Shown here piece after piece: positions 19,889 to 24,565 of a stretch of 53,017 nucleotides of DNA. The position numbers and the translations under genes are program-made. Source of the DNA: Gluconobacter thailandicus F149-1 = NBRC 100600. Lineage in GTDB: Bacteria; Pseudomonadota; Alphaproteobacteria; Acetobacterales; Acetobacteraceae. The stretch is taken from contig NZ_BANH01000044.1 of NCBI RefSeq assembly GCF_000964465.1, positions 1-53,017 on the forward strand. Reading direction: 5' to 3'. The notes beneath the pieces were generated by a model that ran no database searches, had not been told where the DNA came from, and saw nothing but the letters and a program-made list of their open reading frames with translations. Each line of letters opens with the position of its first letter. The first letter of the stretch is position 1.

Positions 19889-20258
19889 CGTTGTGAAAAT
19901 CCGGATTTGTATCCAGCGTATAAAGACTGAGACACAACAGACGTCTGAAGACCTTTCGTGTCCAAGACTTTTTTAGCCCTTAAAGTTCTTACCATATATG
20001 GAATGGCGCACCACCATAACCCGATCCGAGAAAACTGCACCTTGATTTCTGGCTATTGCGTACATTGCTCCCGTAACCGCCTGGATCAGGTTCTGACTGC
20101 CAAAAATGAGTTTCAGTCCTCCAAAATCGTTGTCGATTTAATGCAGGAGGCACCATTATTTCGTTCGTGAAATTGATTCTGCTTCAGTCATATTTTTGAT
20201 GAGTTCATCAGCAAAGAAATTATTGACATTGCCCCACCTCCCATGGATGGAGTGCGTC
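19889..20258. other. Intergenic region upstream of the TPP riboswitch
   Basis: No gene is supported in these 370 bases. A 10-bp palindrome (CAGACGTCTG) lies at 19938-19947. A TTGACA hexamer at 20223-20228 could be a -35 element for the riboswitch transcript, but no good -10 follows at normal spacing, so the promoter is unresolved. Confidence 0.4.
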
Positions 20259-20379
20259 TTCACCTTGGGGTGCCCTGCCAAAGGGCTGAGAGACTGCTGA
20301 AGGTCCGTTCCGTCGCGGGACAGGCCGGCGCAGTGACCCATCGAACCTGATCCAGTTCATGCTGGCGGAGGGATGGTGG
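20259..20379 (+). promoter_or_regulatory. TPP riboswitch (THI element)
   Basis: This aptamer binds thiamine pyrophosphate and switches off the downstream genes. All conserved parts occur in order: TTGGGGTGCCC (20265-20275), GGGCTGAGAGA (20283-20293), a variable P3a arm, ACCC (20337-20340), GAACCTGATC (20343-20352) and the closing GCTGGCGGAGGGA (20361-20373). CACC at 20261-20264 pairs with GGTG at 20375-20378 to form P1. The start of the TonB receptor is 94 bases downstream, leaving room for an expression platform. The match to the consensus is strong enough that I regard the call as nearly certain. Confidence 0.94.
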
Positions 20380-20421
20380 CTGCTGACAGATCCATATGCT
20401 GGATTTTCGGTGTCTCTCGTC

Positions 20422-20464
20422 GTCCCGCCCTGCATGGGTGGGATCGCAGTCTTGCAGGCGGGAC
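20422..20464 (+). promoter_or_regulatory. Expression-platform hairpin sequestering the receptor's ribosome site
   Basis: GTCCCGCC-C-TGCA (20422-20434) pairs with TGCAGGCGGGAC (20453-20464) in a 12-bp stem with one bulged base. The 3' arm contains the only purine-rich ribosome-site candidate (GGCGGGA), nine bases before the ATG at 20474. No U tract follows, so control of translation initiation fits better than termination. The pairing is seen; its switching role is inferred. Confidence 0.6.
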
Positions 20465-20473
20465 ACGACGTTC

Positions 20474-22849
20474 ATGAGCAACCGATTTTCATACAGGCCG
20501 CGTCCCGTCCCCGCCGTTCTGCTCGGCCTGACCGTCTGTGCCGGCCCGGTGCGGGCGGCTGATACTACAGCCCTCACCCCACCTGTCCCTGCTGCCCCAA
20601 AAACCGAGCACATTACCGTTCACCGCGTCTCTGACAGCGCACCCGGTCACCAGCCCGGCGGTGGCCTGATCCACCCTGAAAACAGCGTGCGCTCCGTCAG
20701 TACGGTCAGCCGTGATTACATGGACAAACAGCTCCCAATGGCGACGGCCTATCAGTTGGCCTCCATGCTGCCCGGCGCCAATGTCGCCACATCCGACCCG
20801 TTCGGCTTTTCGCCCAACACCAACCTGACCGTTCGCGGACTGAACAATGACGCCATCGGCTATGTGCTGGAAGGCACGCCGCTGAACGATGTCGCCTATT
20901 ATTCAGGCTATCCAAGCCAGTTCGCCGATAGCGAGAATTACAGTCAGGTCGCCCTCGCCCAAGGCTCGGCCGATCTGGACAGTCCTGTCCTGAACGCCGC
21001 CGGCGGCCTGATGAGCCTGTCCTTTCTTGATCCGTCCCAGAAAGCCGGAGGTTTCGCCAGCGTCTCCTATGGCTCCTTCGACACCAACCGCGAATTCATT
21101 CGTCTTGAAACGGGAAACATTGGCAATTCCGGCATTCGTGGCTTCGTGTCCTATTCCCACAGCGCCAGCGACAACTGGCGCGGACCGGGGCGTGACAAAC
21201 GCCAGCATGTCGATTTCAAGTTCCTGAAGGAATGGGGCCAAGGCAACCGCGCCAGCCTCATTGGCTCCTTCAACACCACCGTCACCAGCTATTATCCGCA
21301 AGTTACGATGGAAAGCTGGAAAGCCGATGGTATTCATGGCGCAAACAATCTCGCTGGCCATTATGACGCGTCCAACGCAGACAATGCCGTCAATTACTGG
21401 CGTCTGTGGCGCGCACCGGAACGCACTTTCTATGCAGGCGCCCCCATCCATCTGCATCTGACGCATAAACTGTCGCTGGACGTCACCCCTTACGCACAGT
21501 TCGCTTATGGCAATGTCCCGGGTGGCTCTACCCTGACAGAAACGGGTCTCTATAACGGTACGCAACCCCTGAGTGACACACTCACACTGCCCAATGCACA
21601 GGACGGAACCGCTGTCGTGCGCGCCAATTACACCCAGCGCAGCTATCGCTCAGGCTTTAACTCCGCCCTGCATTACAAAACCGACTGGAATGATTTCGTG
21701 CTCGGTTACTGGTACGATTATGGAGACGACAACGAGCAGCAGCCCTTCACAACCGTTTCCGCCACCGGCGCCTCAGGCGACATCTGGGCGGAAAACAGCA
21801 GCAACCTGATCCATCTTGCGAACGGGCAGAAACTGCTGGGCGGCAGCTTCCACACCATTTCCCAGACCAACGCGCTATATGTGGGCGATCACATCTCGCT
21901 CCTGCATGATCGCCTGACGATCGAAGCCGGTTTCAAAGCCGTCATGATGAGCCGCGCTGGCACGAACAATGTTCCTGGTCCTCAGTATCGTGTAGCCTCC
22001 AACAGCATGGAACCTCTGCCGCGTCTTGGCGTCCGCTGGCGCATTGATGAGCAGAACCAGATCTTCCTCAACGCCACGACCAATTTCCGTGCCCCTGACC
22101 AGACGGCCCTTTACAACACTTACGACCCGACATCCGGCGCACTCGCCACAACAGGCAGTGCGGACGTCCGCAACGAATATTCCATTTCCGAAGAACTGGG
22201 ATATCGCCGCACAGGACAATGGATCATCGGCAGCCTGACGCTGTTCAACTACAACTTCACCAACCGTCAGATCTCAACGCTGGCCTCCCAGAACGGCTCC
22301 ATCATCCAGACGACCATGAACGCTGGAGGCCAGACGTCCCGCGGCGTGGATGTGGAAATCGGTCTGCGCCCCTGGCATCATTTCAGCCCCTATGTCTCCG
22401 GCGAATACCTGCACGCCACCATTGATAACAACATTGCCTCAGGTGGCGATCTTCTGCCCACCAAGGGCAAGATTGCCGTTCGCAGCCCGACACTTCAGGC
22501 CGCTGCTGGCATCAGTTACGATGACGGGCATATCTTCGGCGTGGCCACCCTGCATTACACCGGGCACCAATACGCAACGTTCATGAATGATGAGCGGATG
22601 TCAGACCGAACGACCGGCGATATTTCCGTCGGTTATCGCTTCGGTGATCTGTCTCGCCTGCACAAGCCAACCCTGCGCCTGAACTTCATCAACATCACCA
22701 ATGAACGGTCCCTGTCCGGTGTCGCCAGCCCGACCCTGAACGCAAAGGACACGACCGGCATTTACGGCAGCACGATCAGTGGGAGCGCCCCGAGTTATTA
22801 TATTGGCGGCGGTTTCGCGGCCCTGTTCACAGCGTCCACAGGTTTTTGA
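20474..22849 (+). CDS. TonB-dependent receptor for thiamine or a thiamine precursor
   Basis: The 791-residue outer-membrane receptor has a signal peptide (about residues 1-28, ending VRAA), a TonB-box-like EHITVHRV, and a plug with PMATAYQLASMLPGANV, NTNLTVRGLNNDAIGYVLEG and a periplasmic DSPVLNAAGG segment. A long barrel follows, ending YIGGGFAALF...STGF. The ATG at 20474 starts directly at the signal peptide; an upstream in-frame ATG at 20396 would read through the riboswitch hairpin. The ligand is inferred from the TPP riboswitch upstream and the PnuT-like transporter downstream. It is a different subfamily from the receptor at 2293-5082. Confidence 0.88.
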   Translation: MSNRFSYRPRPVPAVLLGLTVCAGPVRAADTTALTPPVPAAPKTEHITVHRVSDSAPGHQPGGGLIHPENSVRSVSTVSRDYMDKQLPMATAYQLASMLPGANVATSDPFGFSPNTNLTVRGLNNDAIGYVLEGTPLNDVAYYSGYPSQFADSENYSQVALAQGSADLDSPVLNAAGGLMSLSFLDPSQKAGGFASVSYGSFDTNREFIRLETGNIGNSGIRGFVSYSHSASDNWRGPGRDKRQHVDFKFLKEWGQGNRASLIGSFNTTVTSYYPQVTMESWKADGIHGANNLAGHYDASNADNAVNYWRLWRAPERTFYAGAPIHLHLTHKLSLDVTPYAQFAYGNVPGGSTLTETGLYNGTQPLSDTLTLPNAQDGTAVVRANYTQRSYRSGFNSALHYKTDWNDFVLGYWYDYGDDNEQQPFTTVSATGASGDIWAENSSNLIHLANGQKLLGGSFHTISQTNALYVGDHISLLHDRLTIEAGFKAVMMSRAGTNNVPGPQYRVASNSMEPLPRLGVRWRIDEQNQIFLNATTNFRAPDQTALYNTYDPTSGALATTGSADVRNEYSISEELGYRRTGQWIIGSLTLFNYNFTNRQISTLASQNGSIIQTTMNAGGQTSRGVDVEIGLRPWHHFSPYVSGEYLHATIDNNIASGGDLLPTKGKIAVRSPTLQAAAGISYDDGHIFGVATLHYTGHQYATFMNDERMSDRTTGDISVGYRFGDLSRLHKPTLRLNFINITNERSLSGVASPTLNAKDTTGIYGSTISGSAPSYYIGGGFAALFTASTGF

Positions 22850-22853
22850 AGCC

Positions 22854-23999
22854 ATGGCGGCTCCCGGACAGTTTGGCGTCAACGGTGTGCAAACTGAACG
22901 ACACTGGCCGCTGCTGACGCTGGATGAGGCTGGATATGTTCTGGAACGGTTTACCCTGCCCTCCGTCCCGGATACGCTTTTATGGCATGGCCAGCGCCCC
23001 TTCTCCGCAACAGCCCTCGTAAAGCTAACAAACGGAGCCGTGCTCTTCCTAAAGCGGCATGATCCGCGCCTTCGCGATCAGTCTGCCCTCATGGAAGAAC
23101 ATGCATTCATGACGCATCTTGCTGCACAGGGTCTGCCGGTACAGGTCCCACTGAAAGATCGCGCAGGAAGCTCGGTAGTGGAAGAGAACGGATGGACTTA
23201 CGAAGTCTTCCGCCCGCTTCCGGGTTTGGATCTGTATCGGGACGTTCAATCCTGGGAACCATTTTTCTGCGTCGAGCAGGCCCACACGGCGGGCCGGACG
23301 CTCGCGCATCTCCATCTCGCAGCAAAAAAATACGCGGCCCCTGCCCGCCCGAATAACCGCCTGCTGCTCTCCAGTTTCCAGGCCATTACCCATCCAGATC
23401 TTGAAACGGGCCTTGCACGCTGGGGCAATTCCCAACCGGGTCTCAATACCGTCTTCGCAACCCCCTCATGGAAACAGCAACTCAAAAGCCTGCTGCCGTT
23501 CCATAACCGTCTCAAACCTCTTCTGCCCGACATTGAACCGCTTTGGGGGCATGGAGACTGGCACCCCTCGAACCAGTTCTGGACCTCCCGTGAGCCCTCA
23601 GCTGAAATCTGCGGGATTTTCGATTTCGGGATATCAGACCAGACCTGCGCGGCCTATGACCTCGCTGTCGCCATCGAGCGCACTGCCATTACGTGGCTTG
23701 CTCCAAATTACATGGTGGCATGGGATCAACTGACAGCCCTTCTCACCGGGTATCAATCCATCAACTCGCTCTCACCGACCGATCGCAAACTGGTCGTGGC
23801 GTTTCTGCCCTTGGTGCATGTCGAATTCGCACTCTCGGAAGTCTCGTATTACCGCACCCTCGTGCACGACGAAGCCTCCGCAACCGTGGCCTATTCGGAC
23901 TATCTGCTCGGTCATGCCCACTGGTTCGCAGGGCCAGATGGTCAGGCACTTCTGCAGTGGCTTGAAAACACTCTGGAACAGATCACCCCATGTCCCTGA
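22854..23999 (+). CDS. APH-fold phosphotransferase, candidate thiamine kinase
   Basis: This 381-residue cytoplasmic enzyme belongs to the aminoglycoside phosphotransferase/choline kinase fold. It shows the Brenner-type loop HGDWHPSN at 233-240 (catalytic Asp235, metal-binding Asn240) and the metal aspartate in FDFG at 257-259, with an N-lobe ATP-binding sheet before residue 130. It starts four bases after the receptor stop and overlaps the transporter gene by ten bases. Lying between a riboswitch-controlled receptor and a PnuT-like carrier, it most likely phosphorylates imported thiamine and so traps it, like ThiK. That role is inferred from context, and length exceeds E. coli ThiK by about 100 residues. 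Confidence 0.8.
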   Translation: MAAPGQFGVNGVQTERHWPLLTLDEAGYVLERFTLPSVPDTLLWHGQRPFSATALVKLTNGAVLFLKRHDPRLRDQSALMEEHAFMTHLAAQGLPVQVPLKDRAGSSVVEENGWTYEVFRPLPGLDLYRDVQSWEPFFCVEQAHTAGRTLAHLHLAAKKYAAPARPNNRLLLSSFQAITHPDLETGLARWGNSQPGLNTVFATPSWKQQLKSLLPFHNRLKPLLPDIEPLWGHGDWHPSNQFWTSREPSAEICGIFDFGISDQTCAAYDLAVAIERTAITWLAPNYMVAWDQLTALLTGYQSINSLSPTDRKLVVAFLPLVHVEFALSEVSYYRTLVHDEASATVAYSDYLLGHAHWFAGPDGQALLQWLENTLEQITPCP

Positions 24000-24565
24000 C
24001 CGAGCTTCTCGCCGCTCTCCTCAGCGCCGCAGGGGTATGGCTGACAGCAAAACGCCAGTTGGCCTGCTGGCCAGTCTCACTGGTCGCCGCCCTTCTCTAT
24101 GGCTGGGTTTTCTTCACAGCACGGCTTTATGCTGATGCTGCCCTCCAAGCCATTTTCTGCGGCTGTCTGCTTTACGGCTGGTGGCAGTGGAAGACAGATG
24201 CCACACAGGGAGACGCCACGCTCCATATCCGGTCCCTTTCAACCTATAATGCCTGTGCCGGTTTGTTGGCGGGCCTTGTCGGCGGCGGACTCTGGACGTT
24301 CTGCCTCGCCCGGTTTACGGACGATCCCACACCCCTGGCCGATGCCATGCTCAGCAGTTACAGCATCGTGGCGCAGCTCTGGGCCGGCCGCCGCCACACT
24401 GCAAGCTGGCTGATGTGGATCGTGATCGACACAGCTTACGTGCTACTCTTTCTCACGCGCGACCTTTATCCAACTGCCGTGCTGTATGCGTTTTTCATCG
24501 GGCTCGCCTTCCAAGGCCTGATGCGCTGGCGAGCCGCAGAAAAAACGGATCAGCGTCTGGCCTGA
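23990..24565 (+). CDS. pnuT: PnuC/PnuT-family vitamin transporter, probably for thiamine
   Basis: The 191-residue inner-membrane protein has about seven hydrophobic segments and the family hallmarks WPVSLVAALLYGWVF, YADAALQAIFCGCLLYGWWQW and WIVIDTAYVLLFLTRDLYPTAVLY (in the last, the Trp/Asp/Tyr positions stand out). PnuC proteins move unphosphorylated nicotinamide riboside by facilitated diffusion; the PnuT branch moves thiamine and is often under TPP riboswitches, as here. A diffusion carrier needs a kinase to trap substrate, which the overlapping upstream gene can supply. The 3' end overlaps the converging aminotransferase gene by 16 bases. The gene symbol rests on riboswitch context. Confidence 0.83.
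   Translation: MSLTELLAALLSAAGVWLTAKRQLACWPVSLVAALLYGWVFFTARLYADAALQAIFCGCLLYGWWQWKTDATQGDATLHIRSLSTYNACAGLLAGLVGGGLWTFCLARFTDDPTPLADAMLSSYSIVAQLWAGRRHTASWLMWIVIDTAYVLLFLTRDLYPTAVLYAFFIGLAFQGLMRWRAAEKTDQRLA

Follow-up and report, generated by a model that had tools for sequence, protein, structure and literature searches.

A probable thiamine capture operon of Gluconobacter and related acetic acid bacteria: TPP riboswitch, TonB-dependent receptor, APH-fold kinase and PnuT-like carrier

Known thiamine salvage systems and the Gluconobacter locus

Gut Bacteroidetes commonly possess TPP-riboswitch operons of the OMthi-pnuT-tnr3 type, according to the accessible part of the study of Costliow and Degnan (2017, PMC5613172). 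There, mutants of the receptor or of the carrier need approximately 10 times more thiamine once synthesis is removed, and in Bacteroides the OMthi and pnuT transcripts beside TPP riboswitches changed little with thiamine (PMC5613172). As far as that part of the source describes them, these operons share with the locus discussed here, which lies in a 53,017-nucleotide contig of Gluconobacter thailandicus F149-1 = NBRC 100600 (the whole stretch of DNA analysed, hereafter the window), a TPP riboswitch, a TonB-dependent receptor, a PnuT-type carrier and a thiamine-phosphorylating enzyme, which in the window is a proposed one. The enzyme is, however, Tnr3 (‘thiamine pyrophosphorylase’, PMC5613172) in Bacteroidetes and an APH-fold kinase in the window, where the kinase gene precedes that of the carrier; unlike Tnr3, this kinase presumably stops at thiamine monophosphate (TMP) and needs ThiL. 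The original prediction had considered the pairing of the kinase with a dedicated receptor as unusual, which does not hold in view of the Bacteroidetes operons (PMC5613172, as far as accessible). The unusual and new element is the kinase family, and the layout is a variant of the known Bacteroidetes operons.

With ThiK (YcfN) of E. coli, which belongs to an APH-type family, the kinase shares the proposed reaction from thiamine to TMP, but it differs from ThiK by its length (381 residues vs the 256 positions of the TIGR02721 model), by not matching this model and by adjoining transport genes. A TPP-controlled operon with a receptor and a thiamine permease is also known from Variovorax (PMC10409787) but, unlike that in the window, it sits with biosynthetic genes and no kinase partner is named in the accessible text (PMC10409787). 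No description of the operon in acetic acid bacteria was found among the literature matches listed, a result that, with subscription papers mostly outside the scope of the search, is no proof.

Layout of the operon

Riboswitch, receptor, kinase and carrier are packed as one operon between positions 20256 and 24565 (table 1), with 4 nt from the end of the receptor gene to the start of the kinase gene and a 10 nt overlap of the kinase and carrier genes. Order, tight packing and overlaps thus correspond to what had been described from the sequence. The span initially given, 20259–24565, is right at its 3′ end, while its start falls 3 nt inside the aptamer. Translational coupling of the three genes is likely because of their spacing. 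The closest named relatives found are G. frateurii and G. japonicus, with kinases 83% identical to that of the window. None of 292 matching plasmid records holds 80% of the operon, and among the matches listed (20 of 292) its pieces cover at most 12%.

Table 1. Features of the operon in the window, and receptor-kinase loci of other genomes in which no riboswitch was detected.
Feature	Position	Strand	Basis
TPP riboswitch aptamer (RF00059)	20256..20390	+	cmscan, 68.9 bits vs gathering score 54.3
Predicted hairpin, possible expression platform	20417..20468	+	predicted fold; pairs G-rich 20457-20464 before receptor ATG
TonB-dependent outer-membrane receptor, 791 aa	20474..22849	+	Pfam PF07715 and PF00593 over cut-off
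APH-fold kinase, 381 aa, proposed thiamine kinase	22854..23999	+	Pfam PF01636, 81.4 bits; invariant catalytic residues
PnuC/PnuT-family inner-membrane carrier, 191 aa, proposed thiamine carrier	23990..24565	+	PF04973, TIGR01528
Receptor-kinase loci without riboswitch	L037, L038, L039, L042, L046, L049, L052
Receptor-kinase loci without riboswitch (rest)	L054, L055, L057, L059, L061, L062, L064

The assignment of the first gene to the TonB-dependent receptors, already made in the original prediction, is borne out by the Plug (36 bits) and TonB barrel (92.4 bits) domains; no solved structure matched the receptor at E 0.001. Its open frame reaches upstream to 20396, and the start was set at the ATG that is common to four named Gluconobacter relatives. 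The carrier, as anticipated, is of the PnuC/PnuT type, matching PF04973 (NMN_transporter, PnuC family) with 155 bits over positions 1–174 of the 175 of the profile, i.e. near full length, and, weakly, the solved PnuC structure 4qtn (E 3.3e-4). It also exceeds the cut-off of the PnuC model TIGR01528 (86.5 vs 42.45 bits), as would be expected if the operon salvaged nicotinamide riboside or another vitamin through a PnuC-type system and carried its riboswitch by chance. Such a function is, however, highly improbable with a TPP aptamer that heads the operon and is kept before it in genomes with apparent loss of thiamine synthesis, and with a PnuC-family gene found directly behind a further TPP riboswitch in another genome (G029). 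A thiamine-specific PnuT with putative transport activity is proposed instead, which fits the context of TPP riboswitch and thiamine-type neighbours.

Riboswitch and leader

The RF00059 match (E 1.5e-11) covers the model completely (positions 1–105 of 105), and no other match in the 53 kb window exceeds a gathering score. The four named Gluconobacter relatives, which all carry the full gene set, also have a TPP riboswitch over the gathering score at the corresponding place, so that a chance match was ruled out by score, length and recurrence. By its fit to the model, the aptamer heading the operon is of the TPP class, in line with the original prediction; TPP binding and control of expression are predicted properties. 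A second TPP riboswitch match in the genome of the window strain lies just upstream of thiC and is under the cut-off (44 bits).

The leader between 20391 and 20490 folds with −42.8 kcal/mol (z −3.61; 1 of 200 shuffled sequences as low). In the predicted fold the stem of the hairpin pairs the G-rich GGCGGGAC (20457–20464), which precedes the receptor ATG by approximately 10 nt and is wholly or partly paired also in the predicted folds of the four Gluconobacter relatives, with helices that differ. The modelled hairpin would fit a translational mode of control, with termination as an alternative. Termination has been suggested from RNA-seq of G. oxydans for its thiC riboswitch (PMC5756330, accessible part). 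Promoter and terminator scans returned no promoter and one terminator-like site, on the other strand. Five Gluconobacter leaders share, unchanged, a TTGACA hexamer that lies at 20223–20228, 27 nt upstream of the aptamer, although no promoter was called by the scan.

The kinase and the gap in the thiamine pathway

The catalytic HGDWHPSN and DFG motifs from which an APH-fold kinase had been predicted are both there, and PF01636 (APH) is matched well over its cut-off of 23.2 bits. Across 25 aligned kinase homologues (of 37 kinase sequences or pieces extracted) K67, E82, H233, D235, H237, N240 and D257 are invariant, and the Gly residues of HGD and DFG nearly so. With the catalytic Lys and Glu, HGDxHxxN and DFG all in place, the protein is, as judged from its sequence, a member of the APH kinase superfamily. 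It is not among the matches of the thiamine pyrophosphokinase model TIGR01378 nor of the ThiK model TIGR02721, the curated cut-off of which (299.45 bits) rules out its being a ThiK. A profile built from the 25 kinases and run against 289 alphaproteobacterial genomes (at most six candidates scored per listed genome) found nothing at E 1e-10 outside Acetobacteraceae; the two genomes found at this level are both Acetobacteraceae, a number that says little on the frequency within the family, with four Acetobacteraceae, that of the window included, among the genomes listed.

That the kinase is homoserine-kinase-like, or acts on some other small molecule and merely shares the operon while thiamine is trapped by something else, is quite unlikely. 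This reading draws on the best curated matches, to models of a homoserine kinase (56 bits) and of a serine/threonine kinase (39 bits), and on the solved chains closest to the kinase profile, amicoumacin kinase, YihE and homoserine kinase, all matched only weakly. The curated scores are, however, far under the respective cut-offs of 271 and 194 bits, and the kinase adjoins transport genes even where the carrier is a different one. Moreover, stronger Pfam scores are reached in the genomes searched by other APH-type proteins, mostly approximately 320 residues long, which are probably ThrB. Identity of the kinase itself with ThrB was ruled out by the scores against TIGR00938 (37.6 vs 255.9 bits) and NF003558 (56 vs 271 bits).

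A role for a thiamine kinase is suggested by the rest of the pathway. Of 200 Acetobacteraceae genomes, 185 have a ThiL that exceeds its cut-off, and 199 have a match at E 0.001. Thiamine pyrophosphokinase (TIGR01378) occurs in one (G040) and ThiK over its cut-off in none of the 200. Weak matches to the ThiK profile are found in 99, the best with 54.5 vs the required 299.45 bits; that in the genome of the window strain is at another place than the kinase. In a control set, 6 of 14 genomes matched the ThiK model, E. coli among them, and one was over the cut-off. With ThiL present and both ThiK and thiamine pyrophosphokinase nearly absent, imported thiamine would have no recognised enzyme through which to reach ThiL. 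The kinase thus qualifies well as a candidate for a thiamine kinase family that has gone unrecognised, its putative activity being proposed from these pathway gaps.

Distribution in Acetobacteraceae

A protein search with the kinase matched 82 of the 200 genomes at E 0.001, 30 of them strongly (E 1.2e-50 or better) and 52 weakly (E 1.1e-8 or worse). Gene neighbourhoods were then compared across Acetobacteraceae, as had been suggested with the original prediction, by tblastn maps: receptor, kinase and carrier stay together in 24 of the 30 kinase-bearing genomes, the window included, a count that includes the loci of G030 (truncated at a contig edge), G180 (divided between two contigs) and G126 (broken). 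Two genomes, G037 and G117, have kinase and carrier but no receptor within the region retrieved, three have kinase and receptor without PnuT (G049, G080 and G128, the last on two contigs) and one has the kinase alone, with an ABC ATPase gene upstream (G001). PnuC-family matches, beside the kinase, were obtained in 26 of the 30 kinase-bearing genomes and, among 28 other genomes tested, in G029 and G116 only.

Some loci appear to be damaged or duplicated. L064 (G126, with thiC present) has broken reading frames for both receptor and kinase. In L045 (G136, lacking thiC) the receptor is in three pieces, possibly through decay or sequencing error. In L043 (G169) the kinase occurs a second time, accompanied by a truncated piece of the carrier, and the region retrieved there contains no receptor.

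Control by TPP is not a constant feature of the loci, since 14 of the 27 with receptor and kinase adjoining are without a detectable riboswitch (table 1), including those of G054, G131 and G180 of the same genus as the window strain. These 14 contain no pair of exact core motifs, and the Rfam TPP model found nothing at E≤5 (five loci) or E≤1 (nine loci). The single TPP riboswitch, before thiC, in an RNA-seq table for G. oxydans (PMC5756330, accessible part) agrees with the riboswitch-less loci of this genus. Twelve of the 27 genomes have a TPP element before the receptor, nine over the gathering score and three under it (43.0–51.1 bits; G080, G128, G049) with exact core motifs; the remaining genome (G030) could not be judged. 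Riboswitch presence is clustered on the receptor and kinase trees, and thiC is present in all 14 genomes of the riboswitch-less loci and lost in 6 of the 12 with riboswitch, a pattern part of which may be explained by shared descent.

Exchange of partners

The inner-membrane carrier can be swapped, PnuT or ABC genes taking the position. In G049, G080 and G128, where no PnuC-family match was found, kinase and receptor are kept, the weak TPP element precedes the receptor, and the kinase gene is directly preceded by one for an ABC permease, which overlaps it by 4 nt in G049. In G128 an ABC ATPase gene (by Pfam) precedes that of the permease, and downstream of the receptor G049 and G080 encode an NMT1/THI5-like binding protein. 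These partners are presumably comparable to the permease, ATPase and binding protein of ThiXYZ-type ABC importers, from which the window differs by its PnuC-family carrier and by having no ABC importer. Two further genomes, G029 and G116, contain no kinase of this family: in G029 (L074, 4566–8590) a TPP riboswitch and a receptor 43% identical to that of the window are followed by two TenA genes, and in G116 (L073, 4105–7357) a TPP riboswitch and a receptor 41% identical are followed by one. The further TPP riboswitch of G029 has two tandem PnuC-family genes directly behind it (L071, 4107–5315), with no kinase match in the genome. Found with three sets of thiamine-type partners, the receptor appears to be tied to thiamine or its relatives, whatever the carrier.

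Which of these compounds is taken up has to be considered, as NMT1/THI5-type binding proteins bind pyrimidine precursors, so that pyrimidine could be carried in G049 and G080. Accordingly, the operon might salvage a precursor or breakdown product, HMP or an aminopyrimidine, with receptor and carrier importing the pyrimidine and the kinase forming HMP phosphate; the ABC permease before the kinase and the TenA genes after the receptor would suit such a route as well. It is, nevertheless, unlikely from the biosynthetic genes that accompany the operon or its absence. In three operon-bearing genomes (G032, G070, G136) without convincing thiE and thiG pyrimidine alone would be of little use, with yjbQ, a possible stand-in for thiE, outside the search, and the 27 thiC-less genomes tested that lack the kinase keep thiE and, with one exception, thiG.

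Genomes with apparent loss of thiamine synthesis

No thiC match was obtained in 55 of the 200 genomes (35 of these being named by subtraction from the listed positives), seven of which bear the kinase (G001, G032, G049, G070, G080, G128, G136). The search for thiE and thiG covered 57 genomes, i.e. the 30 kinase-bearing ones and 27 of the 48 that lack both thiC and kinase, hand-picked among those listed as 96–100% complete with some equally complete ones left out. thiE is retained in all 27 (at least 153 bits) and thiG in 26, that of G031 as a fragment of 151 bits, G116 being without. thiG of usual strength is thus missing in 6 of 7 thiC-less genomes with the kinase vs 1 of these 27 hand-picked from 48 without it (Fisher p 3.5e-5, uncorrected for kinship or choice of genomes).

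Among the seven, G001 keeps thiE and thiG. G049 and G080 have thiG matches of approximately 34 bits, about 11 over the Pfam cut-off, and G128 none; for thiE the scores are 148.5 (G049), 142.1 (G128) and 42.5 bits (G080) against a cut-off of 145.1. In G070 and G136 there is no thiE match and in G032 only a 19.7-bit scrap, all three genomes being listed as 99–100% complete. Their thiG matches are partial (best 21.8–25.0 bits over approximately 80–105 of 247 profile positions), those of G032 (23.2) and G136 (25.0) passing the Pfam cut-off of 23 bits by 0.2 and 2 bits, and were taken to be another protein, a second match of this kind being common in genomes whose thiG is full (at least 270 bits). 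By this reading of weak scores, G032, G070 and G136 apparently lack thiC, thiE and thiG.

ThiL is kept in the same three genomes (282–290 bits), and nothing in them matches ThiK even at E 0.001. In each, the one TPP riboswitch found is that before the operon, in a genome-wide search with stricter filters that lose weak matches. G032 contains two APH-type proteins, the operon kinase and one of 318 residues that is probably ThrB; G070 and G136 contain three each. With no ThiE, ThiL would depend for its TMP, within the set of genes searched, on the action of the kinase on imported thiamine alone; this set excluded thiD, thiM, yjbQ, ThiBPQ and other thiamine transporters. In these genomes the operon should therefore import intact thiamine, and the kinase should produce TMP. 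They are few, three in as many genera. In two of the genera a same-genus genome keeps thiC; G118 and G170, of the genus of G032, retain thiC, thiG and a thiE of 136–138 bits, all lost in G032. The window strain has thiC, thiE and thiG, so that the operon is probably not essential to it.

Probable recombination within the operon

Between the window and G. cerinus (L036) the dS values are 0.46 for the receptor, 1.9 for the kinase and 3.4 for the carrier, the last two near saturation, and 0.66 and 1.1 for two neighbouring genes. This sharp change between receptor and kinase/carrier suggests, at the level of sequence, recombination inside the operon. G054, G131 and G180 group near the window in the receptor tree (support 87/90) and in another group in the kinase tree (100/100). 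The trees left out rows shorter than 70% of the window protein and the G136 receptor, and label G030, which could not be judged, and the kinase piece of G128 as without riboswitch. From these few loci, kinase and carrier were probably exchanged as a block with the receptor kept.

Proposed function and significance

The operon is, very probably, one for the capture of thiamine (vitamin B1), with substrate, transport, kinase activity and switch mode proposed on the basis of the comparisons above. When TPP is scarce, the leader RNA would leave the ribosome-binding region free and the three genes would be expressed. The receptor would then bring thiamine across the outer membrane in a TonB-driven step, and the PnuT-type carrier would let it move down its gradient across the inner membrane. 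The kinase would trap it as TMP, to be converted by ThiL into TPP which, once plentiful, would bind the aptamer so that the hairpin before the receptor start shuts the operon. Thiamine as the common substrate, the central proposal of the original prediction, stays an inference, which is now backed by three operon-bearing genomes that have apparently lost thiC, thiE and thiG, by the presence of ThiL where neither a thiamine kinase nor a pyrophosphokinase is recognised, and by loci near TPP elements in which the receptor or the kinase has other partners of thiamine type.

Taken as a whole, it seems rather probable that a separate thiamine kinase family, found here only in Acetobacteraceae and covered by neither the ThiK nor the thiamine pyrophosphokinase model, is the usual partner of the TonB-dependent thiamine receptor, with PnuT or an ABC importer as interchangeable carrier, and that this module allowed the de novo pathway to be lost, apparently three times in three genera. 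The kinase is a candidate for a missing step in the family, most sampled Acetobacteraceae having ThiL and almost none a recognised enzyme for the conversion of thiamine into TMP. Genomes in which the operon is kept and synthesis is lost offer a natural comparison for testing the substrate and, if the proposal is true, annotation of these genes could help to separate acetic acid bacteria that are auxotrophic for thiamine from prototrophic ones.
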